A stretch of 64,000 bases of DNA from Rhodococcus sp. ABRD24 (GTDB taxonomy: Bacteria > Actinomycetota > Actinomycetes > Mycobacteriales > Mycobacteriaceae), in NCBI RefSeq assembly GCF_004328705.1, contig NZ_CP035319.1:1240001-1304000 (forward strand). Direction: 5' to 3'. Numbering within the stretch: the stretch's first letter is position 1; every line of letters begins with the position of its first letter. Below, in pieces: positions 16,929 through 34,563 of the stretch. The notes beneath the pieces are model-generated. The model saw only the letters and a program-made list of their open reading frames with translations, did no database searches and was not told where the DNA came from. The position numbers were made by a program, and so were the translations under genes.

Positions 16929-17795
16929 GTGGCGCAGACACCGAAGTCCCTGGTATCCAAGCTGTCCAAGCGTGGCCCACACCGGGTCCTGCGCGGCGAT
17001 CTGGCACTAGCCGGCCAGCCCGGCCTGGTCTACACGCCGGCGGAGGGCTTCAATCTCCCAGCCGTGGCCTTCGCACACGACTGGATGGTCGGCGTCGGCA
17101 ACTACGCCGACACACTCGAGCACCTCGCCTCGTGGGGCATCGTCGCGGCCGCCCCCAACACCGAACGCGGCCCGGTGCCATCGCATATCGGGCTCGCCGC
17201 CGACCTCGGCACGTGCCTGGACATCTGCACCGGTGTGCGGCTCGGGCCCGGCCGGATCAGCGTCCACCCGGACCGCCTCGCCTTCGCGGGGCACGGGATG
17301 GGCGGGGGAATCGCCGTCCTCGCCGCCGCCCAGCGCGAACAGGTCGCGGCCGTCGCGGCCCTGTTCCCTGCCCCGACCGCACCGTCGGCTGTGGTCGTCG
17401 CCGCGAGGATCACCGCACCGGGACTCGTCCTCTCCGGCTCGAAGGACGTCGATTCACTGACCAGCGACGCCCTCGCCCTCGGCGCGGCGTGGCAGGGTCC
17501 GGCGCTGCGGCGCACACTCGACAAGGCGTCCGCGTCCGGTCTGATCGAGGGCCGACGCCTGCTCGGCGCCCTCGGCATCGGGGGGTCCGAACGCCGCACC
17601 CAGCAACTCACCCGAGCGCTGCTCACCGGATTCCTGCTCTTCCACCTCACCGGCGACAAGACATACGCGCCATTCGGTGATGCGGACGCCGAATTCCCCG
17701 GCGCGCACCCGCCGGTCGCTGCGGACTCCGCCGGCGAGCCCGAGACCGCCGAGCACCGCGCCGGGGTTCAGATCAGCCAGCTGCTGGGACGGTAA
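16929..17795 (+). CDS. Dienelactone hydrolase/chlorophyllase-like alpha/beta hydrolase
   Basis: The 288-residue protein has an alpha/beta-hydrolase core: AVAFAHDWMVG for the oxyanion strand, FAGHGMGGGIAVLAA at the nucleophile elbow, and LVLSGSKDVDS near the acid position. The elbow reads G-H-G-M-G with Gly where the nucleophile Ser or Cys should be, so it may be inactive or use another residue. There is no signal peptide. GTG 16929 is taken as start; TAACGT at 16916-16921 could be a -10 box for a nearly leaderless message. The 3' end overlaps the convergent 70-residue gene by 28 bases. Confidence 0.75.
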   Translation: MAQTPKSLVSKLSKRGPHRVLRGDLALAGQPGLVYTPAEGFNLPAVAFAHDWMVGVGNYADTLEHLASWGIVAAAPNTERGPVPSHIGLAADLGTCLDICTGVRLGPGRISVHPDRLAFAGHGMGGGIAVLAAAQREQVAAVAALFPAPTAPSAVVVAARITAPGLVLSGSKDVDSLTSDALALGAAWQGPALRRTLDKASASGLIEGRRLLGALGIGGSERRTQQLTRALLTGFLLFHLTGDKTYAPFGDADAEFPGAHPPVAADSAGEPETAEHRAGVQISQLLGR

Positions 17796-17980
17796 CCCTC
17801 CGCTTCAACCTCGTCGGTTGCCGCTGCCGGCCGGGCGTCGGCAGTACTCGGCTGCTCCCCTGGCCGATTCGGCGCCGCGCCGCGCAAGGCTCCGCACGTG
17901 GTGTCGAGTTGCTCGCGGATCCGAGTGAGCGCCGCCGCGTGATCAGCCGCGATCTGCCCGAATCGACCCGCACGGCTCAC
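17768..17980 (-). CDS. Small protein coupled to the Pro-rich type VII-like gene
   Basis: This 70-residue protein starts with GTG 17980, overlapping the stop of the preceding gene as GTGA. This coupling is the main evidence that it is real. The first half is predicted helical (FGQIAADHAAALTRIREQL), the middle is Pro/Ala-rich, and it ends in a GYRPSSWLI tail. There are no membrane segments or recognised domains. It is the third member of the cassette with the EspC-like and Pro-rich proteins, so a chaperone or small-partner role is possible but unproven. Its 3' end overlaps the convergent hydrolase. Confidence 0.6.
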   Translation of the reverse strand: MSRAGRFGQIAADHAAALTRIREQLDTTCGALRGAAPNRPGEQPSTADARPAAATDEVEAEGYRPSSWLI

Positions 17981-19503
17981 AGCGGACCGGCCTCGGCGAG
18001 CGCCGGTCCCGACGCGTCAGCGCCCGGATCCTCACCTGACGGTGTGGTTCCGCCTACCTCGGCGAGTGCAGGTTCCTGCCGCGGCCGTACCGCCGGGGCC
18101 GCCGGCGGGCCCAGCACAGGCTCTGCGGGTCGCGGAGCCGCATCCATCGACTCGCCGTCACTGTCGATTCGCACGACAACGTCGACGGGCTCGTCCGTGG
18201 TGACGCGTACGGTGACGTCAGGGTCCGGCGGCGCGACGCACTCGTCGACCGGTTCCGCCGGCGCGGTGGGTTCGACGCACTCCCGGGGTTCGGGCGGCTG
18301 CGGGGGCTCGGGCGGTTCGGCGCACTCCGGGGGTTCGGTGGGCTGCGGAGGTTCGGTGGGCTGCGGGGGTTCGGTGGGCTGCGGGGGTTCGGGCGGTGGC
18401 GGTGGTGGGGGTGGCGATGGTGGGAGCTCCAGATTGAGGCTGAAGCTCCGACTCGACTCCACGATCTCGCGAACTACACCGCCGACGACGTCGATCGCCA
18501 CCCCGGCCAGGGCGCCCACCACCGAACCCAGTGCGTGAGCGGCACCATCGACGTCAGGTGCGTTCGGCACACCAGGTGGGCCCTGTGCCCCGACTGTGCC
18601 CTGCAACCCGAGCGTGCCCTGCAACCCGAGCGTGCCCTGCAACCCACCGAGCATCGGACCTGCCGCTACCGAGGTGGCCAGCGAGCCCGAGCCGCCCGGG
18701 CTCGGCGCGGGACACGATCCGCCGGAATCCGAACTGACGGCCGCGGGAGCGGGAGTGAAGGCCCGTACCGGAGCGGGCGGACACAGCGGTGCGACTGGGC
18801 CGGTGGACGCGGGCCCCGCGTCGTCAGGGACGGGATACGCACTGTCGTCGACTAGCGCGAACACCTCGGCCAGCGCGAGGTAGACGTCGTCGACGGCGGC
18901 CGCGGTGAGGTCGCACATCGTCACGAACGCCTCGGCGGCTGCGCGCACGTGCGGAACGAACTGATCGACGAGCCACTCGCGGCATGTCTCCGCCGGGGGC
19001 GCGTTCAGACCGTTGGCGAAGCCCGGCAGATACCCGGCCGCGGCGAGCATCCGGTCGATCCGCTCGAGTGGCAGACCGCCGATCGTCAGTGCATCGAGAC
19101 TTCCAGCCCACTGCGCCTTCGCGGTGACGATCTTCCTTAGCGCACAAGCAGATTCGGCGAGCGCCACCTCGAGGTCCCACGTGGACGCGCGGACCCCGTC
19201 GGCTCGTGCCAGCTGATCGGCGAGGTGGGCCGCGGCGTTGTCGGCGCCCTGCCCGGACCATGCGTCTCGCAGCTCTGCGACTACGGACGACTGGTCGTCG
19301 AGCTGCCGGTCCAGGACCGTCGCGACACGCCCCACCGCTTCGGCGTCGGCGTCGAGTACGTCAGGATTCATGCCGCGCTGTTCGAAGTAGCGGGACTGCA
19401 GCTGTTGGTACGTGATCGACATCGGCGCAACCAACCGAGCACGCGGCAGCAACTCGGCGAAGTGGCGCAGACCGATCGCGCCGGAATCGAGGATCGCGTC
19501 CAT
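17977..19503 (-). CDS. Large Pro-rich protein with WxG-type helical N-terminus (Rv3439c-like)
   Basis: The 508-residue protein has a helical N-terminal half (about 30-245) with a W-S-G turn at 82-84 (RDAWSGQGADNAA), like the helix-turn-helix of WXG100/PPE/EspA-type substrates. A low-complexity second half follows: three LQGT(L/V)G repeats, then PPQPTE repeats and an acidic tail. It has no signal peptide. ATG 19503 shares one base with the upstream stop (TAATG), and the 3' end is coupled to the 70-residue gene. By position it matches M. tuberculosis Rv3439c. A type VII substrate role is inferred from the fold pattern and its EspC-like partner. Confidence 0.72.
   Translation of the reverse strand: MDAILDSGAIGLRHFAELLPRARLVAPMSITYQQLQSRYFEQRGMNPDVLDADAEAVGRVATVLDRQLDDQSSVVAELRDAWSGQGADNAAAHLADQLARADGVRASTWDLEVALAESACALRKIVTAKAQWAGSLDALTIGGLPLERIDRMLAAAGYLPGFANGLNAPPAETCREWLVDQFVPHVRAAAEAFVTMCDLTAAAVDDVYLALAEVFALVDDSAYPVPDDAGPASTGPVAPLCPPAPVRAFTPAPAAVSSDSGGSCPAPSPGGSGSLATSVAAGPMLGGLQGTLGLQGTLGLQGTVGAQGPPGVPNAPDVDGAAHALGSVVGALAGVAIDVVGGVVREIVESSRSFSLNLELPPSPPPPPPPPEPPQPTEPPQPTEPPQPTEPPECAEPPEPPQPPEPRECVEPTAPAEPVDECVAPPDPDVTVRVTTDEPVDVVVRIDSDGESMDAAPRPAEPVLGPPAAPAVRPRQEPALAEVGGTTPSGEDPGADASGPALAEAGPL
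18333..18386 (+). repeat. 18-bp tandem repeat, three units, coding for PPQPTE
   Basis: Three adjoining units of GTTCGGTGGGCTGCGGRG are nearly identical at DNA level, with a partial fourth after them. On the minus strand they encode the PPQPTE repeats of the Pro-rich protein. The near-perfect DNA identity suggests recent unit duplication by slippage rather than selection on protein alone. Confidence 0.85.
18597..18645 (+). repeat. 18-bp tandem repeat coding for LQGT(L/V)G
   Basis: The unit TGCCCTGCAACCCGAGCG occurs twice exactly (18597-18614, 18615-18632) and a third time in its first 13 bases. On the minus strand it gives the LQGTLG repeats of the same Pro-rich protein. A more diverged copy precedes it. 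Unit number is likely to vary between strains. Confidence 0.85.
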
Positions 19504-19805
19504 TACCGCAAGCCGAATCGCGAGGTGTTCGTGGATTCCTGACGGCTGTAACCGGCCGCCGTCGAGTCGAGCACCTGCGCGGAACCTGCCGAAGCCGACG
19601 CCCACATGCCGAGTGCACGGGCCAGGCGGAGGTACCCCTCCCGGATCGCGGCGCCGTGCGCGCCGCAGTCCCGTCCGGCGACTGAGGGCCCGAACCCGCA
19701 GTCGGAGACGGTCCGTGCCGCGCCCCCGACCGCGTCAGCGCTCGTGCGCAGCGCCCGCGCCGCTGCCCGCACCTCTGCGAGATCGATCACTACCGCGTCT
19801 GCCAT
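19503..19805 (-). CDS. EspC-like small type VII protein (Rv3440c-like)
   Basis: This 100-residue protein is almost entirely helical with a central Gly-rich turn, and near its C-terminus reads STAAGYSRQES. Tyr86 and Glu90 form a YxxxE motif like the YxxxD/E secretion signal of type VII substrates. The pattern (charged helix, turn, W at 68, then L..S...Y...E) resembles the EspC/T7SS-EspC family. It precedes the W-S-G protein with a 1-base overlap, so one partner would carry the Y signal and the other the W turn. It corresponds in position to Rv3440c. Secretion is inferred. Confidence 0.7.
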   Translation of the reverse strand: MADAVVIDLAEVRAAARALRTSADAVGGAARTVSDCGFGPSVAGRDCGAHGAAIREGYLRLARALGMWASASAGSAQVLDSTAAGYSRQESTNTSRFGLR

Positions 19806-19889
19806 GGGGTCCGCCCTTCGTCTCGTCGGTCAGGATGCTTATGTCCTGTTCGACGCAGCGGGCGGTCCGGTGGTTCCCCGGGTCGTGCG

Positions 19890-23861: not shown

Positions 23862-24146
23862 CTACGCCCAGCTGTTGGCAGCGGCCGTGTTCACCTGCTG
23901 CATATCCGCGTTGCCCTGGCCGACGACCCGGCCTACGGCGTCGAGGATCTGGTTGAGCTCGAGCGCCGCAGAGTCCCACTTCGCCTGCTGCGCCTGGTAG
24001 GCCTCCGAGGCCGAACCCTCCCAATCGGCAACCATCGGCGCGACATGCGCCTTGAGGTCGTCGAGCTTCGAATTCATCTGGGCCTGGATGGAGTCGATCC
24101 GAAGCTTGAGCGCTTCGATCTGGGCGAACGAGTAACGCATGGTCAT
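23862..24146 (-). CDS. esxT: WXG100-family ESX-4 protein EsxT
   Basis: This 94-residue protein is a WXG100 helical hairpin, with W-E-G at the turn (VADWEGSASEAYQAQQ). By position in the ESX-4 locus and length it is the EsxT partner (Rv3444c). It lies 50 bases after the esxU-like gene, so both are probably made together as a heterodimer that ESX-4 exports. No clear YxxxD/E signal follows the second helix. ATG 24146 (MTMRYSF) is chosen; ATG 24140 is possible. Confidence 0.9.
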   Translation of the reverse strand: MTMRYSFAQIEALKLRIDSIQAQMNSKLDDLKAHVAPMVADWEGSASEAYQAQQAKWDSAALELNQILDAVGRVVGQGNADMQQVNTAAANSWA

Positions 24147-24196: not shown

Positions 24197-24511
24197 TCAG
24201 ATGTTCAGGCTTCCTGCGACGTTGTTGAGCGAACTCGTGTGATCCTGCTGCGCACCGTCGTAGGACACGCTGTTGGACTTGATGTTCTCGCTGATGGCCT
24301 CGAGCGCCTGGTTCAGCTTGTTGGCACTTCCGTCCCATCGCTCCATCAGACTGTGGAACGCGATGGCTGCCGACCCCTCCCAGCCGCCGCGGATCCCCTC
24401 GACCTCTCCTCTGAGGGTGCTGAGCAGACCGTGGATCTCCGCTCGCACGTCGCTGACGCGACGGGAGGTGGCCTCCATGGTCTCGACAGTGGTCCTCATC
24501 TGATCGCTCAC
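24197..24511 (-). CDS. esxU: WXG100-family ESX-4 protein EsxU
   Basis: This 104-residue protein has W-E-G at the hairpin turn (RGGWEGSAAIAFHSL) and long amphipathic helices either side. It precedes the esxT-like gene in the order of M. tuberculosis Rv3445c-Rv3444c. After the second helix it reads VSYDGAQQDHT: the Tyr is there, but the expected Asp/Glu at +4 is Gln. GTG 24511 is the start. A spacer of 156 bases separates it from the upstream gene, so the pair may have its own promoter. Confidence 0.9.
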   Translation of the reverse strand: MSDQMRTTVETMEATSRRVSDVRAEIHGLLSTLRGEVEGIRGGWEGSAAIAFHSLMERWDGSANKLNQALEAISENIKSNSVSYDGAQQDHTSSLNNVAGSLNI

Positions 24512-24667
24512 ATTGACTCCTTCGGAATCGTTCTCGCGCTTCCGCGTCCCGCTGCTGGAGCACCCGATCGACTCTTCCTCAGCCGCAGCCAGTTCGCGCC
24601 TACATATGGTTGGACGTATCCGTGTGCCGGTTCGGTTCCGTCGATCGCAAAGTTTCTCCGACGCCTG

Positions 24668-26014
24668 TCATCGACGCGGCGAAACCTCGAGGCTGCGGAG
24701 CGCCTGCTCGCAGTCGGCCGCCAGGTCGCCCCAGTCCCCTTCCAGGAACTGGCATCCCACGCTCACTTGCATACCGTCCTCGACAAGCACGTGCCACCGC
24801 ACCCGGGACACCCCATCCGGAGACTCGGTGTAGGCAATCCCACGACGACCCGCGAACCGCGCCTCCGGGTCGAACTCCGAGAACGGTCCGCCGGGTCCTC
24901 GCTCGGCGATCCTCCGTTCGAGTGCTGCTGCGACAGCAGCGGTATCGATCCACTGGTCAATGTCCTTGCCGACCAGTACGATCCGCCGATCCGGACCCGA
25001 GTCGGGAACCAGATCCAGGCGGCCACCCGCACCCGACCGCGAGCGCCAGGTTCCCGGCAGCTGCACACTCACGCGCCCCATCGCGAAGCGTTCCGGCGGC
25101 TCAGCTACGGCCTGCACCGGCGCGGGCACGGCAGCCGGACCGGCTCCGTCGGCCCGCACCTGCCACACGACCGCCGCAGCACCTGCGAGGATCAGCACGA
25201 CTACCGCCGACGCCACCAGCATTTTCGGCCGTCGCCGCGGCCGGGGCGTCGACGTCAGGTCCGGCCGTGCCTGCAACTGCGCTTGCGACTGGGCCACGGG
25301 CGCGTCGCGAAGAATCCCGTCTGCCGCGTCCGCGCTCTCGCTGGCGGCCACCAGCTCCGCGTCCGCAACCACCAGGACCGGCCGGTCGAGTCGGTCCGTG
25401 ATGACGCTGCACAGCTCGGGATCCGCGGTCACGCTCCCGGTGAGTAGGACGAGATCTGGTGTGCAGTCGCCCCCGGCGGCGTCGATCAGCCGGTCTATCA
25501 CCGCCACTCGATCACCGTCTTCGCGTATGTCCGCACTGCCGGTTTCCGGCGCAAGTTCACACGCGGCAATGCGCCGTCGGCCGTCGCGGCCCCGCTCGAT
25601 CCGCGTCACCGTGGTCGTCAGCGATGCACACTCGACGACTACGCAGCGTTCACTCTCCTGCGCCGCTGCAGCCAGGAGCGCCACTGGGACTGCCGAAGCC
25701 TCGCGGACCGTTCGCCGCGCGGCCGATTCCAGTACCGCACGCCGTCCGGCGCCCCAATGCGAGGGACACGAAAGCGTCGCCGCCTTGATGGGCTGGTTTT
25801 CGCGGCAGACTCCCTCGATCGCACGCTGAAGTACCCCGGCCAGCACCTCGACAGTTGCGCACGGCCGCCCCGACACGGTCATCGAGCGGTCGTCGATTCT
25901 GTCGATGCAGTCCCGCGCGAGGGTGTTCGGGGCACAGGTGACCATCGAACCGATTCCCACCCAGACCGCATCGTCGGTCAGGTGCAGCCGCAGATGCACT
26001 CCACCGGTCGTCAC
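24668..26014 (-). CDS. Type VII secretion-associated protein, Rv3446c family (Hsp70-like fold, membrane anchored)
   Basis: The 448-residue protein has an N-terminal half that follows Hsp70 nucleotide-domain order in degenerate form: ATLSCPSHWGAGRRAVLESA (about 79-98), VPVALLAAAA (about 109-118), VVVECASLTTTVTRI and VLLTGSVTADPE. The phosphate-binding glycines are lost, so ATP hydrolysis is doubtful. A transmembrane segment (about 265-286) leads to a C-terminal domain (about 300-448; SVQLPGTWRSRS) characteristic of the Rv3446c family. GTG 26014 overlaps the eccC stop as GTGA; GTG 26029 is an alternative. The role in ESX-4 is unknown. Confidence 0.85.
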   Translation of the reverse strand: MTTGGVHLRLHLTDDAVWVGIGSMVTCAPNTLARDCIDRIDDRSMTVSGRPCATVEVLAGVLQRAIEGVCRENQPIKAATLSCPSHWGAGRRAVLESAARRTVREASAVPVALLAAAAQESERCVVVECASLTTTVTRIERGRDGRRRIAACELAPETGSADIREDGDRVAVIDRLIDAAGGDCTPDLVLLTGSVTADPELCSVITDRLDRPVLVVADAELVAASESADAADGILRDAPVAQSQAQLQARPDLTSTPRPRRRPKMLVASAVVVLILAGAAAVVWQVRADGAGPAAVPAPVQAVAEPPERFAMGRVSVQLPGTWRSRSGAGGRLDLVPDSGPDRRIVLVGKDIDQWIDTAAVAAALERRIAERGPGGPFSEFDPEARFAGRRGIAYTESPDGVSRVRWHVLVEDGMQVSVGCQFLEGDWGDLAADCEQALRSLEVSPRR

Positions 26015-29000
26015 AGCGGCGGCAACCACGCGAGCTGCACCAGGGACGTACCGCTGCGATCAATGAAAGTTCCTCGCCCCTGCGGCATCTCGCTGGGACG
26101 GACAGCACCGATCAGGTTCCCCTCGTCACGGCTTCCACTCATCACCAATCCCGCGGACACCAGATCGCGCAGGCGCGCTACGACCGGTTCATAGAGTGCA
26201 CGCGCTGCACCGCCGGACCGGCGCGCGATGATGAGGTGGAGGCCGAGATCCTTCGCGTGCGCGAGATAGTCGAGGAGCGGCGTGAGCGGATTTCCGCTCG
26301 ATGTCGCGACGAGGTCGTAATCGTCGACCACCACGTAGATCTCGGGCCCCGACCACCAGGAGCGCTCACGCAACTGCTGCTGGGTGGTGTCCGGACCCGG
26401 CATGCGGCTGGCGAGAATTCCGGCCAGATCGTTCATCATTGTGGTGAATGTGGCTGCGGAGGCGGCGTATCCAGCGAGATGATCACCTTCGACGACCCCG
26501 AGCATGGTGCGCCGGTAGTCACCGACGATCAGTTTGGCCTGCTGCGGAGTGTTCGATTCCATGAGCCCCATGCAGATTCCGCGAAGCAGCGTCGTCTTGC
26601 CGCAGCCGCCGTCACCGAAGGCCAGGAAGTGCGGCTGATCGGCGAAGTCGAGATACACCGGTGCCAGCTCGGATTCGTTGATTCCGATCGGCACGGACAG
26701 GCAGGCGCCGCTCAGGGCGTCCGGAACCGGCCAGACTCCGGCGGTCGCCGCGACCAGTTCCTCCCGCGGAATCCGGTCCGGCAACATGCGCACCGGCGGA
26801 GCGGGGCGTCCGGATCGGAGGGCCCCGATCACGGCCACCGCGTCGGCGACTCCCACACCCAGATCGTCACTGCGGGAGATTCCGTCGATCCGCGGGAGAG
26901 CGGTCAGCAGGTGCAGCCCGTCGCGGGTGATCCCGCGTCCGGGCCGGCCCGCGGGAACGCGCATCGCCTTCGCCCGTCCCACATCGGAATCGGCGGGATC
27001 TCCCAGCCGCAGCTCGATGCGCGTGCCGAGCTGGTCCTTGAGCGCGGGCCGGATATCGGCCCAGCGTGGGGTCGCGAGCATGACGTGGACGCCGAACGAG
27101 AGCCCCTGCCCGGCGAGTGCACCGATCTGCGCCTCGAGCGCCTCGAAGTCCTGCCGGATACCAGGCCAGCCGTCGACCACGAGGAACACGTCGCCGAACG
27201 GATCGGCGGCAACACCGGAGGAGTCGGGGCCGGCATCGCCGTCCATGCCGCGCAAGCGCCGGAACTCGGCCATCGATTCGATCCCCAGTTCCCGGAACCG
27301 GCGTTCGCGCCGGCGAACCAGCGTGCTCATCTCGGCGACGGTGCGGCGCACCAGGTCCACGTCGAGACGGTTCGCCACCGACCCCACGTGCGGCAGCCCC
27401 ACCACCCCGGACAGGGTGCCACCGCCGAAATCGAGGCAGTAGAACTGAACCTGCTCCGGCGAATGCGTCGCCGCCATCGACATGATCAGCGTGCGCAAGG
27501 CGGTGGACTTCCCGGACTGCGGGCCGCCCACGACGGCCACGTTGCCGGTTGCCCCGGACAAGTCCGCGAACAGCGGATCACGCCGCTGGTCGAACGGCCG
27601 ATCGATCACACCGATCGGGGTTCGCAGCGTACTCGTCGCGGGCACCGGGCCGCTGAGCGTCGACGGCGGCAGCAGCTGATCGAGGGTCGGCGCGAACTCG
27701 AGCGGCGGCAGCCACACCTCGTGCGCGGCCGGACCGCGTCCACGGATCCGGTCGACGAGCACCTCGAGGACCGATCGGCCGTCGGAGTCGTTCTCCGGCA
27801 GAGGATCCGGAAGTACCGGCAGCTCCGGTCCGCCGTAGACCGCGAGCGGGACCGGCGCCGCGGTGAACGGCCGCGGCCTCAGGTCCACCGCAGCTTGCGC
27901 CACGCCCGCGGATCTCCGGACCCGCTCGCTCTCGTACGGCCCCGAAACGTACGCCGCAGCGAAGCGCACGATCTCGGCCGAATCGCACTTGAGGTAGCCG
28001 GCTCCGGGCGAGGCCGGCAGGTGGTACGCATCAGGTACACCGAGAACTGTTCGGGACTCGTTCGCCGAGAATGTCTTCAGCCCGATTCGGTACGACAGGT
28101 GACTGTCGAGACCGCGCAGCTTCCCTTCCTCGAGTCGCTGGCTCGCGAGCAGCAGGTGCATGTGCAACGAACGGCCGAGCCTGCCGATCGCGACGAACAA
28201 ATCCGCGAACTCAGGCTGTTGGCTGAGTAATTCGGAAAACTCGTCGACGACGATGAACAGAGCCGGCAGCGGCGGCAGTTCGGCACCGGCGGTGCGGGCC
28301 TTCTCGTAGTCGGTCACGTTCGCAAAGTTGCCGGCGGCCCGCAGCAGTTCCTGACGCCGGTTCATCTCGCCCGCCAGCGCATCCTTCATCCGGTCGACCA
28401 TGGCCAGTTCCTCGGCCAGATTCGTGATGACCGCGGCTACGTGCGGCGCCTCGTCGAGACCGAGGAACGTGGCGCCGCCCTTGAAGTCGACGAGCACGAG
28501 ATTGAGAGCCTCGGGCGAGTGGGTGGCGAGCAAGCCGAGCACGAGGGTACGCAGGAACTCGGATTTGCCCGACCCCGTAGCGCCGATGCAGAGACCGTGC
28601 GGACCCATGCCGTTCTCGGCCGCCTCCTTCAGGTCGAGCTCGACCGGGCTGCCGTCGACGCCGACCCCGATCGGCACCCGCAACCGCTCCCGCCCCTGCC
28701 GTGGCAACCATGCGCGGTCGGGATCGAACTTCCCGATGTCACCGAGTCCGAGCAGCTTGCTCCACCCCGCGGCTATCGGGATGCCGGTGCCCTCGCTGTC
28801 CGTAGACGTGCGGTCCGCAGCCCGGTACGGCGCCAATCGGCGTGCTGCCGCCCGCGCCTGCGCCTCGGTGAGCAGATCCGCCGCAGCGAACGTCTCGACG
28901 CCCGCGCCGCTGCGCGCACCGAGTGAACCGTCGGAGGCCACGAGCTGCAGACCGCGAGTGGCCGCAAGTCGCGGGCAGAAGCCGCTGAGATCGAGCAGTG

Positions 29001-30024
29001 TCACCGAATCCAGTCCGCCGTCGGCGGCCAATCCGGTTTCGCCGTCGAGAATTCCGCCGTCGATCACGACGACGATCTGCGGTACGCCGAGCGTGGGCGG
29101 CGCACTCCGCGCGAAGCGACCACGCATGGCCAGCTGCGTCCCCAGGGCGGACTCGAGCTCGAGGACCGAGCCGTAGACCATGCGGGACGGCCCGACGCCG
29201 TCGAACGCATCCGGATGCTGTGCGTGGGGCAGCCATTTCGCCCACTCCCACTCCGCCGCCGTGTCGGGGCCACACACGATCGCCAGCTGTAGCTGGTCCG
29301 GCCCGTGGAACACGCACAGTTGCAGCAGCATCGAACGCACCAGCGCACGGGCTTCGTGCCGATCACCGTCGATCGAAACCGCCGCGAATCCCCGCAACGA
29401 CACCGCCGTCGGCAGTTCCGCGACCACCGAATGCGCGCGCACGAATCGCCGTAACGACACCGCGGATACCGGCTCGAGGTCCTCGACGGGTCCGGTCTCC
29501 GGAGGAATCAGGCGCGTCGCGAGCCGCTGGCCGCCCCGCCCCACGCGCACATGGCAGTAGTCCGCATCGGTGACGCGGCGCTCCCACATCCGCCCGGTAC
29601 CGGCCAGCGTCCACAGCAACTGTGGGTCAGGGTGGCTCCACTCGAGAGCCTTGCGCTGCTGGCGCCCGGTGTCGAGTGCGTCGCGTCGCAGTTGGTCGAG
29701 GTAGCGCAGGTAGTCCTTGCGCTCCTCATTGGCCTCCGCGGCCTTCGCCCCGCCACCACGGCCCGATCCGGCCAGCATGCCCAGCATCGAGACCATCATC
29801 ATCGCCGGGAACAGCAAGGACATCGGGTTCTTCGCCATGCCCGAGGTGAACATCAGCGCGACCATTCCGATCATCGCCGCGACCATCACCAGCGGGAGCA
29901 GCTTCGTGATCAGGTTGCCGGGGGTGATCCGTGGAATCTCGGGCGGTGTCTGCAGGCTCACCTCACCGCCAGGTGTCCTCGGCGCCTCCCGACGCGCCTT
30001 CCTTACGAAACGCACGGTCCCCAC
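26011..30024 (-). CDS. eccC4: ESX-4 type VII secretion ATPase EccC
   Basis: The 1337-residue inner-membrane motor has two N-terminal transmembrane helices (about 38-85) and three FtsK/SpoIIIE ATPase domains. P-loops are GATGSGKS (Lys about 487), GGPQSGKS (Lys about 839) and GDGGCGKT (Lys about 1143). Walker B reads VVDEF in domain 1, VVDGW in domain 2 and VVDDY in domain 3, so domain 2 lacks a catalytic acid. GTG 30024 is preferred because GGGGGGTGAG precedes it; TTG 30039 is in frame. It heads a minus-strand run with the Rv3446c-type gene and is divergent from eccD. Confidence 0.95.
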   Translation of the reverse strand: MGTVRFVRKARREAPRTPGGEVSLQTPPEIPRITPGNLITKLLPLVMVAAMIGMVALMFTSGMAKNPMSLLFPAMMMVSMLGMLAGSGRGGGAKAAEANEERKDYLRYLDQLRRDALDTGRQQRKALEWSHPDPQLLWTLAGTGRMWERRVTDADYCHVRVGRGGQRLATRLIPPETGPVEDLEPVSAVSLRRFVRAHSVVAELPTAVSLRGFAAVSIDGDRHEARALVRSMLLQLCVFHGPDQLQLAIVCGPDTAAEWEWAKWLPHAQHPDAFDGVGPSRMVYGSVLELESALGTQLAMRGRFARSAPPTLGVPQIVVVIDGGILDGETGLAADGGLDSVTLLDLSGFCPRLAATRGLQLVASDGSLGARSGAGVETFAAADLLTEAQARAAARRLAPYRAADRTSTDSEGTGIPIAAGWSKLLGLGDIGKFDPDRAWLPRQGRERLRVPIGVGVDGSPVELDLKEAAENGMGPHGLCIGATGSGKSEFLRTLVLGLLATHSPEALNLVLVDFKGGATFLGLDEAPHVAAVITNLAEELAMVDRMKDALAGEMNRRQELLRAAGNFANVTDYEKARTAGAELPPLPALFIVVDEFSELLSQQPEFADLFVAIGRLGRSLHMHLLLASQRLEEGKLRGLDSHLSYRIGLKTFSANESRTVLGVPDAYHLPASPGAGYLKCDSAEIVRFAAAYVSGPYESERVRRSAGVAQAAVDLRPRPFTAAPVPLAVYGGPELPVLPDPLPENDSDGRSVLEVLVDRIRGRGPAAHEVWLPPLEFAPTLDQLLPPSTLSGPVPATSTLRTPIGVIDRPFDQRRDPLFADLSGATGNVAVVGGPQSGKSTALRTLIMSMAATHSPEQVQFYCLDFGGGTLSGVVGLPHVGSVANRLDVDLVRRTVAEMSTLVRRRERRFRELGIESMAEFRRLRGMDGDAGPDSSGVAADPFGDVFLVVDGWPGIRQDFEALEAQIGALAGQGLSFGVHVMLATPRWADIRPALKDQLGTRIELRLGDPADSDVGRAKAMRVPAGRPGRGITRDGLHLLTALPRIDGISRSDDLGVGVADAVAVIGALRSGRPAPPVRMLPDRIPREELVAATAGVWPVPDALSGACLSVPIGINESELAPVYLDFADQPHFLAFGDGGCGKTTLLRGICMGLMESNTPQQAKLIVGDYRRTMLGVVEGDHLAGYAASAATFTTMMNDLAGILASRMPGPDTTQQQLRERSWWSGPEIYVVVDDYDLVATSSGNPLTPLLDYLAHAKDLGLHLIIARRSGGAARALYEPVVARLRDLVSAGLVMSGSRDEGNLIGAVRPSEMPQGRGTFIDRSGTSLVQLAWLPPL

Positions 30025-30240
30025 AGCCTCACCCCCCAAGACGAAGTGCGGTCCGCGTCCGAACCGCCGTCACCCCGAAACCGAGTCTCCCCCACCGGTC
30101 CGGCGCGCGAAGTGAGAAACTACCGCACGGCACGCGCTGCACGCGGTCGAGGCCCCGACAGCCCGTGACGTAGAGTTCCGGTGTTTTCGTAGCGAGCGAT
30201 CCGGGTGGGGATCCGGGTCGCGGAATCCGGGGGGTCGATC
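30025..30240. promoter_or_regulatory. Divergent eccC4/eccD4 intergenic region
   Basis: This 216-base spacer must hold the promoters for the eccC run (minus) and the eccD-mycP run (plus). A ribosome-binding GGGGGG lies 6 bases before the eccD GTG. I see no strong inverted repeat or clear -35/-10 pair, so the promoters are not placed. Confidence 0.45.
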
Positions 30241-31710
30241 GTGACAGTTGTGCAGGCAGACCATGCATCGAGCGTCGGCGCGCGGCCGCGCGGGGCGGCC
30301 GACCTGTGCCGTCTGACGGTCCTCGCGCCGCGGACGCAGATCGATCTGGCCCTGCCCAATGCAGTCCCCGTCGAGTTGCTGATTCCGGGAATTGCGGATC
30401 TGATCGAAAAGCACAGCGCCACGAACGAGTTCGACGTCACGAGCGTCCGCACCGAGCCGGTCCGGTGGACGCTCTCGCGGGTGGGCCAACCGCCGCTGTC
30501 ACCCGCGATGAGCCTGCAGGAGCACGGTGTCCTCGACGGCGAACTCCTGGTGTTCGACACCGCTGAGGCGAGTGCTCCGCCACCGCTGTTCGACGACATC
30601 ATGTACAACGTCGCGGTGGCCGACGCTGGTCACAGCCATCCGTGGACGCCGCGCGCTGCGCGGCTCACCGGCTCCGCACTGGCGATCGCCGCGACTGTCG
30701 CGGGCGCGTTCGCGCTACTCCAGACCGACGGCGGCACAACGTCCGTCATCGCCGCGGCGTGCGGACTGTTCACGATGGTCCTGTTCCTCGTGGCGGGTGT
30801 CGTGAGCAGCCGAATCTACGACGACCGCGCATCCGCACTTGTGTTGGGCACCGCGGCGCTGCCCGTCGCCTTCGCGGCGGGCATCCTGCTCGTGCCCGGT
30901 GACCGGGGCGCACCCCACCTGATGCTCGGCCTTGTCATCGTCGGGGCGTCGTCCGTTCTTTCGTTGCGGGTCAGCGGTGTCGGGCCCGCCGTGTTCACCG
31001 GTGCCGCGGCTGTCGCATTGCTCGGATCCGGGGCGGCCGCGGTGGCGACCCTCACCGAACAAACCCCGCACGCGGTGGGTGCACTGCTCACCGGTGCAGC
31101 ACTCACCGGATTGGTGTTCGCACCGCGCAGTGCAATGCTGCTGGCGAAATTGCCCCTCCCGCCGGTACCCGCGCCCGGCACGTCGGTCGACCCCGCCGAG
31201 GACGACCCCGACGACAGCAGGCAGTCCCCGTCGTTCGCGACCATCGAGGCCCGCGCGGACCGCGCCCGCCGGTATCTCACGGGGCTGGTGAGCGCGATGA
31301 GTCTGCTCACCGTCTTCGGCGCCCTCCTCGCCTGCACACCATCGGGATCGTCCAGCATCTACTGGCCGGGAACGGGTCTCGCCATAGCCGCCGCATCGGT
31401 GCTGATGTTCCGGGGGCGCACCTACAGTTCCGCCGAGCAGGCAGTCGCTCTGATCGCCGGCGGCGGCGCGATCCTCGTGCTGCTGTTCGCCGGCACCGCT
31501 GTCGCGGTGCCGCATGCGGGCCTCGCCCTGTTCGTCGCGGCGACAGTGTTCGTCGCGGCCGCCCTAGCCCTGGGTATTCTCGCACCGCAGCGATCCTTCT
31601 CTCCCGTGCAGCGCCGGCTCGCGGAGTTGGTCGACTACACGGCCATCGCGGCCGTGTTGCCGCTGGTGTGCTGGGTCTCCGGCCTCTTCGCTGCCCTACG
31701 CGGCCTGTGA
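30241..31710 (+). CDS. eccD4: ESX-4 membrane channel component EccD
   Basis: The 489-residue protein starts with a ubiquitin-like YukD domain (about 20-105; LCRLTVLAPRTQIDLALP to LLVFDT), followed by about eleven transmembrane helices (from about 135 to the end), the EccD layout. Dimers of EccD form most of the membrane pore of type VII systems. GTG 30241 follows GGGGGG at good spacing; the upstream in-frame extension is Gly/Arg-rich and not needed. The stop overlaps mycP4 as GTGA. Confidence 0.93.
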   Translation: MTVVQADHASSVGARPRGAADLCRLTVLAPRTQIDLALPNAVPVELLIPGIADLIEKHSATNEFDVTSVRTEPVRWTLSRVGQPPLSPAMSLQEHGVLDGELLVFDTAEASAPPPLFDDIMYNVAVADAGHSHPWTPRAARLTGSALAIAATVAGAFALLQTDGGTTSVIAAACGLFTMVLFLVAGVVSSRIYDDRASALVLGTAALPVAFAAGILLVPGDRGAPHLMLGLVIVGASSVLSLRVSGVGPAVFTGAAAVALLGSGAAAVATLTEQTPHAVGALLTGAALTGLVFAPRSAMLLAKLPLPPVPAPGTSVDPAEDDPDDSRQSPSFATIEARADRARRYLTGLVSAMSLLTVFGALLACTPSGSSSIYWPGTGLAIAAASVLMFRGRTYSSAEQAVALIAGGGAILVLLFAGTAVAVPHAGLALFVAATVFVAAALALGILAPQRSFSPVQRRLAELVDYTAIAAVLPLVCWVSGLFAALRGL

Positions 31711-33080
31711 ACCGCGGCCTGCGGGTGTCCCTCGTCGCCGTCATCGTCACGCTCACCGCCACGCTCGGCCAGGGCAGTGCCGCCGCAGTCGTACCGGCCC
31801 CGATCGATCCCGGACGCCTACCACCGCCCAGTCGGCCGGCACCGCTCGAGCCGACCGAACAGCGCAATGCGTGTGCGTTGGCACTGCCGATGGCCGACAA
31901 CCCGGATATGCCACTGCCGCAACGGACGATGGGATTCGAGTCGGTGTGGCCACTCAGCCGCGGCCGCGGCCAGACGGTCGCCGTCATCGACACCGGGGTG
32001 TCACGACACCCACGCCTGCCGAACCTGATTCCCGGCGGCGACTACGTGTCGAACGGCGATGGCATCGGGGACTGCGACGCCCACGGCACCATCGTCGCCG
32101 GACTGATCGCCGCCGAACCGGTGCCCGGTTCCGGCTTCGCGGGTGGAGCACCCGAGGCACGGATCATCACGATCCGCCAGTCCAGCGCCAAATTCTCCGA
32201 GGCCCGGCGCCGCGAGAACACGAACGACGTGCAGAATTCCACCGGCTACGGCAATACCCAGACCATGGCGATGGCCGTCCGGCACGCCGCGGACATGGGT
32301 GCGACCGTCATCAACATCTCGGAGGTTGCCTGCCGATCCGCCGCTGACGGCATCGGTGACCAGTCCCTCGGTGCGGCAATCCAGTACGCCGCGACGGTCA
32401 AGAACGCGGTGGTGGTCGCCGCCGCCGGCAACTACGAGTCCGGCGGGTGCACGCCGCAGAACCTGTCGGCCGATCCGCTCGATCCGGGCGCCGACCTGTG
32501 GAATTCAGTGGTCACCATCGCGACACCGGCGTGGTACGACGACTACGTGCTGACCGTCGGATCCGTCGACCCCGACGGATCCTCGTCACAGTTCAGCCTC
32601 GGCGGGCCGTGGGTGGACGTCGCCGCGCCCGGAACCGGGATCGTCTCGCTCAATTCCGATGGCCGGGGCCAGACCCGCGAGTGGATCACCCCGCAAGGCC
32701 AGCAGAACGCGTTCGACGGCACCAGCTTCGCAGCTCCCCTGGTGTCCGCGACCGCCGCACTGGTCCGGGCGCGATACCCGCAGTTGACGGCACGGCAGGT
32801 CATCACACGAATCGAAGCCACCGCGCACGCTCCGGCCGAAGGCTGGAATCCCTATATGGGGCATGGCGTTGTCGATCCGCTGGCCGCTGTCAGTGACGAC
32901 ATCCCCCTGGATTTCGTCCTCGACAACGCGCCGCACTCGACCGCCCTGCCCGCTCCGAAACCGGCACCGGCACCGGATAACCGGCCGCGAACCGTGGCGC
33001 TGGCCGGGACCGGCGCAATCGTGGCGCTGGCGTTCCTCGGAGTACTCGCCTCGTTCCCCCTGCGGCGGTGGCGCCGGTAG
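31707..33080 (+). CDS. mycP4: ESX-4 mycosin, membrane-anchored subtilisin-like protease
   Basis: The 457-residue protein has a Sec signal (about 5-27), a subtilase domain with Asp95 (VAVIDTGV), His126 (CDAHGTIVAG) and Ser340 (FDGTSFAAP), and a C-terminal transmembrane anchor (about 430-450) followed by RRWRR. Mycosins sit on the outer face of the membrane and stabilise the type VII complex. All three catalytic residues are present. GTG 31707 overlaps the eccD stop; it ends 10 bases from the convergent eccB. Confidence 0.95.
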   Translation: MNRGLRVSLVAVIVTLTATLGQGSAAAVVPAPIDPGRLPPPSRPAPLEPTEQRNACALALPMADNPDMPLPQRTMGFESVWPLSRGRGQTVAVIDTGVSRHPRLPNLIPGGDYVSNGDGIGDCDAHGTIVAGLIAAEPVPGSGFAGGAPEARIITIRQSSAKFSEARRRENTNDVQNSTGYGNTQTMAMAVRHAADMGATVINISEVACRSAADGIGDQSLGAAIQYAATVKNAVVVAAAGNYESGGCTPQNLSADPLDPGADLWNSVVTIATPAWYDDYVLTVGSVDPDGSSSQFSLGGPWVDVAAPGTGIVSLNSDGRGQTREWITPQGQQNAFDGTSFAAPLVSATAALVRARYPQLTARQVITRIEATAHAPAEGWNPYMGHGVVDPLAAVSDDIPLDFVLDNAPHSTALPAPKPAPAPDNRPRTVALAGTGAIVALAFLGVLASFPLRRWRR

Positions 33081-33090
33081 CGGTGATTGC

Positions 33091-34563
33091 CTAGTTGCCC
33101 GCCGCGATCGGTGCGGCCTTTTCATCGGATGCCACGCCGTCATGGGCGACGAGTGCCTCGTCCCGGCCCAGTGTCGGTCCGGGCGCGAGTAGTTCGACGA
33201 TCCGCCAGGGTGCGGGTGGGCCGGGGACCTCGAATCCGAGCGCCTCGGCAGCGTCGGAATTCGGGATGCCGTACCGCACACCGGTGTCCGCGACGAAGAA
33301 CATTGCGCCCTTGCGCGAGCTGCCCGACTCGAGTCCGGTGGTCTGGACGAATCCGCTACTGCCCGGGCGGAAATAGACCGCGTCCGCCTTGTCTCCGGAC
33401 CCGTCCGCCTGCGCGAGCCGGACCGTACGAGCCTGCTCGGGGATCGGCAGCGCCCGCCCCGCCGACAACGACAGGGTGGCAGCGACGCGTCCGGAGTCGT
33501 CGCCCTCGGAAGTCCCCATCGGAGTCCAGGTCAGACAGCTGACCGGGTCGTCGCCATCGCCGACGAGACGCGGTGCGGACCGGGGGAATGTCGACACCTC
33601 GAGTTCATGTGCGGTCGGCGCCTTCGCGAGCGCGTCGGGGGTGACGGCGGCCATTGCCGACTGTCCCTGCGAGTCCGCGAACTGGATGAGGAAGGCGGTA
33701 GCGGCACTCACCTCCTGCACCCCGTCCCGTAGTACCACGTAATAGTGGGCGGTGTCGTCGCGCATGACCTTGACGACGGAACCGACAGTCCTGCCATTGA
33801 TGTCGAAGGTGGGGGCCGTTCCCGCACCTGGGATGACGGGCGGCGCGATCGGCAGCACTTGCGGGATGGCATTGAGCATGCCGCGGCTGACGGGCCTGGG
33901 GCGCGCGCCCTCCAACCCGAGTGCCCGGGTTACCGCCTGATCGCGAAGATCGATCGGTGCGCGTCGGCCGTCGTACACCAGGAATGTCGTCTCATCGCTC
34001 TCTACCAGCAGGGCCTCGTCCGGGTCGAGCCTGCCGACCCGATCGCTCCAGTCGGGATCTCCCACGATCACCGACGTTGCAACGGAACGGCTTCCACCTG
34101 AGGACACCGTGTTGCACACCGTCCACGGATGCCCGTCCGTGCCGCCGCTCGGCAGTGAGGAGGGTGCACCGGGTATTCCGAGGAGGGCGCCACGCGGCAT
34201 CGTGTCGAGCTCGGACTCCTTGACCGTCACCGGCTGCGCGGACTCGCCGAGGATGAGCCGCGCCGAGGCCAGATTGAGGACGGGATGCAGCGCGCCGTCG
34301 ACGACGACGAACATTGCGCCCGAGTCCTTTCCGACGACAATCGACGCGTTACCGATCTTGTCCAGCGGCCGGATCAGAGCCAGTGCAGCGCAGGCCGCAA
34401 GCCCGAGGCACGCGAGAACTGCCCCCACGGCGAGCGCCCTCGACTGCGACCGCATGGGATCGTGCAACATGCGCACATCTCTACGGACCAGCGCGTGTTC
34501 CATCCGCCGGACCAGAAACCGGTATCCGCTGACCTGCCATCGCGTCGTCGGCTGTGCTGCCAT
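33091..34563 (-). CDS. eccB4: ESX-4 core component EccB
   Basis: This 490-residue protein begins with the EccB signature TTRWQVSGYRFLVRRMEHALVRRD, then one transmembrane helix (about 43-66) and a large outer domain with repeated beta segments. EccB stands in the core complex and reaches into the cell wall. ATG 34563. It is divergent from eccE, sharing the 112-base spacer, and convergent with mycP4. Confidence 0.95.
   Translation of the reverse strand: MAAQPTTRWQVSGYRFLVRRMEHALVRRDVRMLHDPMRSQSRALAVGAVLACLGLAACAALALIRPLDKIGNASIVVGKDSGAMFVVVDGALHPVLNLASARLILGESAQPVTVKESELDTMPRGALLGIPGAPSSLPSGGTDGHPWTVCNTVSSGGSRSVATSVIVGDPDWSDRVGRLDPDEALLVESDETTFLVYDGRRAPIDLRDQAVTRALGLEGARPRPVSRGMLNAIPQVLPIAPPVIPGAGTAPTFDINGRTVGSVVKVMRDDTAHYYVVLRDGVQEVSAATAFLIQFADSQGQSAMAAVTPDALAKAPTAHELEVSTFPRSAPRLVGDGDDPVSCLTWTPMGTSEGDDSGRVAATLSLSAGRALPIPEQARTVRLAQADGSGDKADAVYFRPGSSGFVQTTGLESGSSRKGAMFFVADTGVRYGIPNSDAAEALGFEVPGPPAPWRIVELLAPGPTLGRDEALVAHDGVASDEKAAPIAAGN

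Follow-up and report, generated by a model that had tools for sequence, protein, structure and literature searches.

PE/PPE pairs, in which a small hairpin with a YxxxD/E motif joins a larger partner that is helical and carries a WxG turn, are clients of type VII (ESX) secretion systems, and the WXG and EspC folds, together with YxxxE, are typical signs of an exported client. Here we describe a three-gene cassette about 4 kb from an ESX-4 locus in a stretch of 64,000 nucleotides (nt) of the Rhodococcus sp. ABRD24 genome (contig NZ_CP035319.1, positions 1,240,001 to 1,304,000; hereafter the window, whose own numbering is used unless stated otherwise), the first two genes of which probably encode a PE/PPE-like heterodimeric substrate pair exported by ESX-4. 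PE25-PPE41 and the other PE/PPE pairs of ESX-3 and ESX-5 show the same combination of a small YxxxD/E hairpin and a large WxG partner, and PPE41 was the best Foldseek match of our large partner, but the cassette has no PPE Pfam match and no EspG gene, and it is linked to ESX-4. EspC of the EspC/EspA pair (ESX-1) belongs to the same Pfam family as our small partner, whereas our large partner has no EspA_EspE match and the linkage is again to ESX-4. EsxU and EsxT of ESX-4 share the locus, the promoter type (esxU) and a WXG100-like hairpin with the cassette, but these are two short WXG100 proteins, while one partner of the cassette carries a long Pro-rich tail. On this reading, the pair works like a PE/PPE pair without being a PPE pair by Pfam, the small partner being of the EspC family and the large one WXG100-like.

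Among ESX systems, ESX-4 has been called the most ancestral (PMC10117145), a YxxxD/E-type motif of exported clients is also reported elsewhere (PMC8092274), and a 2025 study of Mycobacterium abscessus stated that more ESX-4 substrates are still to be identified (PMC11791044). By position, the closest named counterparts of the pair are Rv3440c and Rv3439c (Ppr2) of Mycobacterium tuberculosis, because they are numbered next after Rv3441c, which is GlmM (PMC3414508), and because the pair follows glmM in the Mycobacterium (g50) stretches. Mycobacterium loci show the same small-before-large order behind glmM, and the laboratory strain Mycobacterium smegmatis mc2 155 carries a pair linked to glmM, but what has been reported for Rv3439c is binding to the Rip1 PDZ domain, thought to prevent unspecific activation of Rip1 (PMC6963305), and not a role as an ESX-4 client. 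We found no description of the pair as an ESX-4 client in the literature covered, which takes in only part of the work on SigM and so does not prove absence in print.

The small and large partners

As the first-pass annotation had claimed, three coupled open reading frames (ORFs) on the minus strand, overlapping by 1 and 4 bases, encode proteins of 100 residues (19503..19805), 508 residues (17977..19503) and 70 residues (17768..17980). Both halves of the split signal that it had pointed out are also present, namely Tyr86-Ser-Arg-Gln-Glu90 in the 100-residue protein (Y86-x-x-x-E90; 19536..19550, minus strand), a putative type VII signal at the end of the hairpin, and Trp82-Ser-Gly84 in the 508-residue protein (19252..19260, minus strand). 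The pair are real genes and not chance ORFs, with counterparts aligned across the genus at 11 other loci for the small partner (40-53% identity) and 10 for the large one (37-45%). The two genes are tightly coupled, with an overlap of 8 nt or less or a gap of 3 nt or less in 34 of 37 loci (the script picked the start nearest the small stop codon). In 37 of 40 stretches of the family the two genes were found side by side, and in 79 of 80 Mycobacterium loci, which are the best 80 of 138 (79 usable for small-gene counts), the small one precedes the large one.

The small partner matched the T7SS EspC family (PF10824) over residues 1-97 with 24.6 bits, above the Pfam cut-off of 23.5, and 10 of the 18 rows of its alignment matched the family at E ≤ 0.01. 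The AlphaFold model is a helical hairpin (helices 9-35 and 45-98; mean predicted local distance difference test score 78.9), and the best Foldseek matches were EsxA, WXG100 and PPE4. A single-sequence search with this protein (P0001) matched only itself, and whole-genome searches and profiles were used instead. YxxxD/E was present in 17 of 18 alignment rows (judged by eye) and in 77 of 79 Mycobacterium proteins, but in 14 of 37 of the wider family set; thus the proposed signal stands for the window protein and is not universal across the wider family.

The large partner is modelled as a helical domain (residues 1-217), in which helix 47-81, the W-S-G turn and helix 85-134 form a helix-W-x-G-helix hairpin, followed by a remainder modelled without structure except for helix 319-353. 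The turn is conserved in the alignments: W82 and G84 are invariant in 15 rows, and in a 20-row alignment G84 is invariant and W82 is found in at least 90%. A family profile of the domain searched against the PDB matched EsxB/CFP-10 first (E 5.9e-7), and the nine best matches were all WXG100-type chains, while Foldseek placed PPE41 at ranks 1-4 (E 0.07-0.15, probability 0.89-0.94). The WXG100 Pfam family (PF06013; cut-off 27.3 bits) was not reached by the full-length protein (22.0 bits) or by the domain alone (25.2 bits); the relative L044 exceeded it (27.7 bits). Among 20 domain relatives there was no match to PPE (PF00823) or to EspA/EspE (PF18879) at E ≤ 0.01, hhalign of the domain against a PPE, EsxU and another WXG protein gave a probability of just 10-13%, and a single-sequence search with residues 1-260 (P0002), which scored 7995 candidates, gave no match at E ≤ 1e-3. 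Judging from sequence, we class the large partner as WXG100-like only. The likeness to EspC/EspA put forward in the first-pass annotation therefore holds for the small partner and fails for the sequence of the large one.

The Pro-rich character of the 508-residue protein is evident beyond about residue 230, and the protein ends in LAEAGPL. This C-terminal tail is clade-specific and conserved inside clades: in 13 of 40 stretches the protein finishes with [LI]xEAG[PAS][LM], a further 11 have LAL[AL]G[DE]x, and five aligned Mycobacterium rows have TPCE(I/V)AA(D/E)ELP (the Mycobacterium count of 64/80 is biased, one of the two search patterns having belonged to that tail). Many relatives of the genus have Cys-rich stretches (e.g., CDCDCACDC) ahead of the Pro-rich tail (L026-L036), which are absent from the window protein and suggest possible metal binding.

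The 100-residue EspC-type hairpin would pack on the WXG hairpin domain (residues 1-217) of the large protein, and this packing would set the YxxxE of the small partner beside the W-S-G turn of the large one. EccC4 would then recognize the folded pair and move it through the membrane, and the long Pro-rich tail, with its clade-conserved end, may act outside the membrane.

Linkage to ESX-4

The ESX-4 locus lies where it had been placed before, about 4 kb upstream of the cassette. Its nearest gene is esxT (23862..24146, minus strand; PF06013, 59.3 bits), followed by esxU (24197..24511, minus; PF06013, 74.8 bits), a gene for an Rv3446c-type ESX-4 protein (24668..26029, minus; TIGR03931, 116.3 bits), eccC4 for the ATPase (26011..30039, minus; TIGR03924/TIGR03925), eccD4 (30205..31710, plus; TIGR03920), mycP4 for the mycosin (31668..33080, plus; TIGR03921) and eccB4 (33091..34563, minus; TIGR03919). 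In the one-contig genome of 5.1 Mb, EccC4 is the single EccC above the family cut-off, so that ESX-4 is the sole type VII system detected; the next separate match scored 94.8 bits, like the FtsK-type matches found elsewhere, and we read the lower-scoring matches of this search as FtsK-type.

On the minus strand the cassette is flanked by glmS and a hydrolase gene of opposed direction (Pfam DLH) on one side and by glmM, rpsI and, further up, esxT, esxU, the Rv3446c-type gene and eccC on the other. The order ESX-4, rplM, rpsI, glmM, small, large, hydrolase, glmS is constant in 11 loci of the genus, and ESX-4/rplM/rpsI/glmM/pair/glmS was found in two families. In another locus (L042) the pair stood upstream of rplM and not behind glmM. 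A wider set comprised 40 stretches of 20 kb or less that covered 19 genera of the family, one genome contributing two; by reading, glmM was present in 35 of these and an ESX-4 gene in 27. Twenty further stretches came from two other families (f14 and f2; several genomes contributed two), 13 with glmM and the large gene, five with neither glmM nor ESX-4, and two from f2. In f2 (L045, which is the same gene as L213, and L212 from another genome), the pair is immediately behind esxT, with no glmM within the stretch. The f2 locus runs on from ESX-4 through EspC, large and a protein with a W-L tail (L045, 11394-16877, and L212), and in L045 genes resembling YbaB, EspC, WXG and EspG follow, as judged by eye. 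L087 and L108, from a genome with three large-domain matches (G034), also have small-large pairs, in stretches that lack both ESX-4 and glmM.

Co-loss with ESX-4

The large-domain profile matched 155 of 201 genomes of the family at E ≤ 1e-3, some solely through other WXG proteins, and 132 at E ≤ 1e-8. The Rv3446c marker of ESX-4 was lacking in 20 of the 201 genomes; at E ≤ 1e-8 the large gene was present in 2 of these 20 as against 130 of the 181 with the marker (Fisher 9e-8, uncorrected for the tree), and at E ≤ 1e-3 in 8 of 20 as against 147 of 181. The marker is imperfect, as EccC was above the cut-off in 19 of 21 genomes checked (the 20 marker-less ones and G001), including both marker-less genomes with the large gene (G099 and G132). 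Most clearly, in one species of the same genus (G011), no EccC above the cut-off, no Rv3446c match and, within 20 kb at the locus, no esxU or esxT was found, while rplM, rpsI, glmM, the hydrolase gene and glmS are all in place and glmM and glmS are intact around a decayed pair. The small ORF of this genome is still uninterrupted, Asn replaces the acidic residue of YxxxD/E, and the promoter boxes are only a few bases apart, the normal spacing being lost (motif and promoter both by eye); what is left of the large gene is no more than a possible end piece (tblastn E 0.52). In G070, the second genome without EccC, the large domain had no match. The lack of the large gene in one genus member (G001) was ruled out as a loss, being due to an assembly gap, and was not counted.

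A common promoter type of the small gene and esxU

The start codon of the small gene is preceded by an extracytoplasmic function (ECF)-type promoter, GGAACC...CGTC (19852..19877, minus strand), that ends 46 nt away, and that of esxU by a matching one (24613..24639, minus) that ends 101 nt away. The consensus GGAACC-N-CGTC was found in a first count at 17 of 18 small-gene loci (0.14 in shuffles) and 16 of 19 esxU loci (0.34), and in a controlled count within 200 nt at 17/18 and 16/18, respectively. The neighbors were almost free of it: glmM 0/20, rpsI 0/20, rplM 0/19, glmS 0/18, esxT 0/20, eccC4 0/18, eccD4 0/18, mycP4 0/14, the hydrolase gene 1/19 and the Rv3446c-type gene 2/18, with the reversed pattern at zero for all genes except esxT (3/20). 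The boxes are identical in 12 loci of the genus, where the spacer is on average 66% identical. The wider set gave 36 of 55 for the small gene (expected 0.66) and 19 of 27 for esxU (expected 0.55), the former being made up of 34 of 37 in the window's own family and just 2 of 18 in f14 and f2, where L045 and L213 are the same gene; in Mycobacterium the count was 77 of 79, with none for the reversed pattern. Across the genome, the pattern outnumbered its reversed control only modestly (125 vs. 51; 53 vs. 28), so that isolated sites elsewhere carry little meaning.

We take GGAAC/CGTC to be a SigM-type promoter. In M. tuberculosis, esx-4 depends on SigM (PMC8593097, PMC10117145). None of the 12 matches to SigM_subfam (TIGR02950) in the window genome was above the cut-off, and SigM is a candidate for the sigma factor acting here.

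Alternative explanations

Membership of the small partner in the EspC family, the WXG100/PPE-like domain of the large partner, the linkage surviving rearrangement, the common promoter type, the co-loss and the single EccC together support the proposal of the first-pass annotation that this is a split-signal substrate pair of the neighboring ESX-4. The main competitor, which we regard as rather unlikely, is that the pair is an ESX-4-dependent accessory at the machine or the envelope that is not released, either a structural or gating part or a Rip1 regulator. It is favored by the binding of Rv3439c to the Rip1 PDZ domain (PMC6963305), by the tendency of the pair to remain next to ESX-4 and glmM, and by the modelled helix 319-353 in the tail of the large partner; however, the WXG and EspC folds and YxxxE typify exported clients, and a regulator acting outside the membrane would need export anyway. 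The resemblance of LAEAGPL to a PDZ ligand was dropped, as the tail varies by clade (LALAGDQ, AEFAVSGS, CEIAADELPQVGx), often with a charged or small last residue, and thus the link to Rip1 is not based on it.

That the two proteins are not mutual partners, each pairing with EsxU or EsxT or the small one forming a homodimer, seems quite improbable to us: the closest structural matches of the small protein do include homodimeric EsxA/WXG100 proteins, but the close coupling of the two genes and their steady co-occurrence argue for pairing. Least probable is that the pair belongs to a glmM/glmS cell-wall sugar operon unrelated to ESX-4, the neighborhood being old synteny. Although it is located between glmM and glmS in most loci examined, its own ECF-type promoter is common to esxU and absent from glmM and glmS, in L045 and L212 it follows esxT in stretches that lack glmM, and it has decayed where ESX-4 was lost with glmM and glmS left intact.

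The third gene

The 70-residue protein ends in YRPSSWLI, and the end of its gene shares 28 bases (17768-17795) with the convergent hydrolase gene, which ends at 17795. In other genera, homologues with the same 4-nt overlap follow the large gene in L037, L038, L039, L040, L041, L042 and L044, and the counterpart in L045 is 4 nt behind it. The gene was seen in 9 of 40 further stretches, always with the W-L end (9/9), and W-L near the C-terminus is the sole invariant feature of nine aligned rows from nine genomes. None of the 10 genus relatives checked showed it after the large gene, and neither Pfam nor NCBIfam gave a match for the window protein at E ≤ 1. The gene appears to be an ancestral companion retained by the window species, and possibly the protein is a cytosolic escort; of the earlier suggestion of a chaperone or companion, the companion part stands and the chaperone role found no direct support.

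Other candidate clients in the same genome

EspC-type and WXG genes found elsewhere in the genome by separate searches are likewise paired (L246, L247, L248, L249 and L258), and a promoter site is located shortly upstream of the first gene in four of these five pairs, for which the chance at the genome's site density is roughly 6e-11. The pair without a site is L247, an EspC with a 454-residue protein. In L246 (genome positions 1146001-1166000), an EspC-type gene, with an ECF-type site starting 64 nt upstream, is followed by that of a WxG protein with a terminal NlpC/P60 domain, a candidate exported cell-wall hydrolase. L248 (1572001-1592000) has an EspG-family gene, then YbaB, EspC and WXG100_2, with sites before YbaB and near the EspG start. 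L258 (4390001-4405000), with a site upstream, encodes a lipoprotein-like product (by eye), a 124-residue protein with YQVAE and a 511-residue WXG/Gly-rich protein. ESX-4 is usually said to be without PE/PPE and EspG. L249 (2791001-2811000) has EspC-type, PPE (PF00823, 90 bits) and EspG genes in a row and a site that starts 98 nt upstream; the sole EccC of this genome is that of ESX-4.

Implications

The protease Rip1 cleaves RsmA, the anti-SigM factor (PMC10449499). Combining this with the binding of Rv3439c to Rip1, we can imagine, as a speculation that we hold to be unlikely, a feedback loop in which Rip1 cuts RsmA and frees SigM, SigM turns on ESX-4 and the pair, and the large protein, exported by ESX-4, binds the Rip1 PDZ domain and tunes SigM release, the ECF-type promoter marking a wider set of clients (the NlpC/P60 protein, the PPE-EspG module and the WXG100_2 module). 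In that case the cargo of ESX-4 would include a regulator of the sigma factor that controls it, and the link to Rip1, if right, would connect ESX-4 export with envelope stress signalling.

Few ESX-4 substrates are known, and the poorly known job of this system becomes testable through a pair that is widespread and near ESX-4 in many genomes examined. The promoter pattern offers a means of listing further candidate ESX-4 clients in relatives. As this organism seemingly has no other type VII system, the role of ESX-4 may be separated in it free of overlap between systems.

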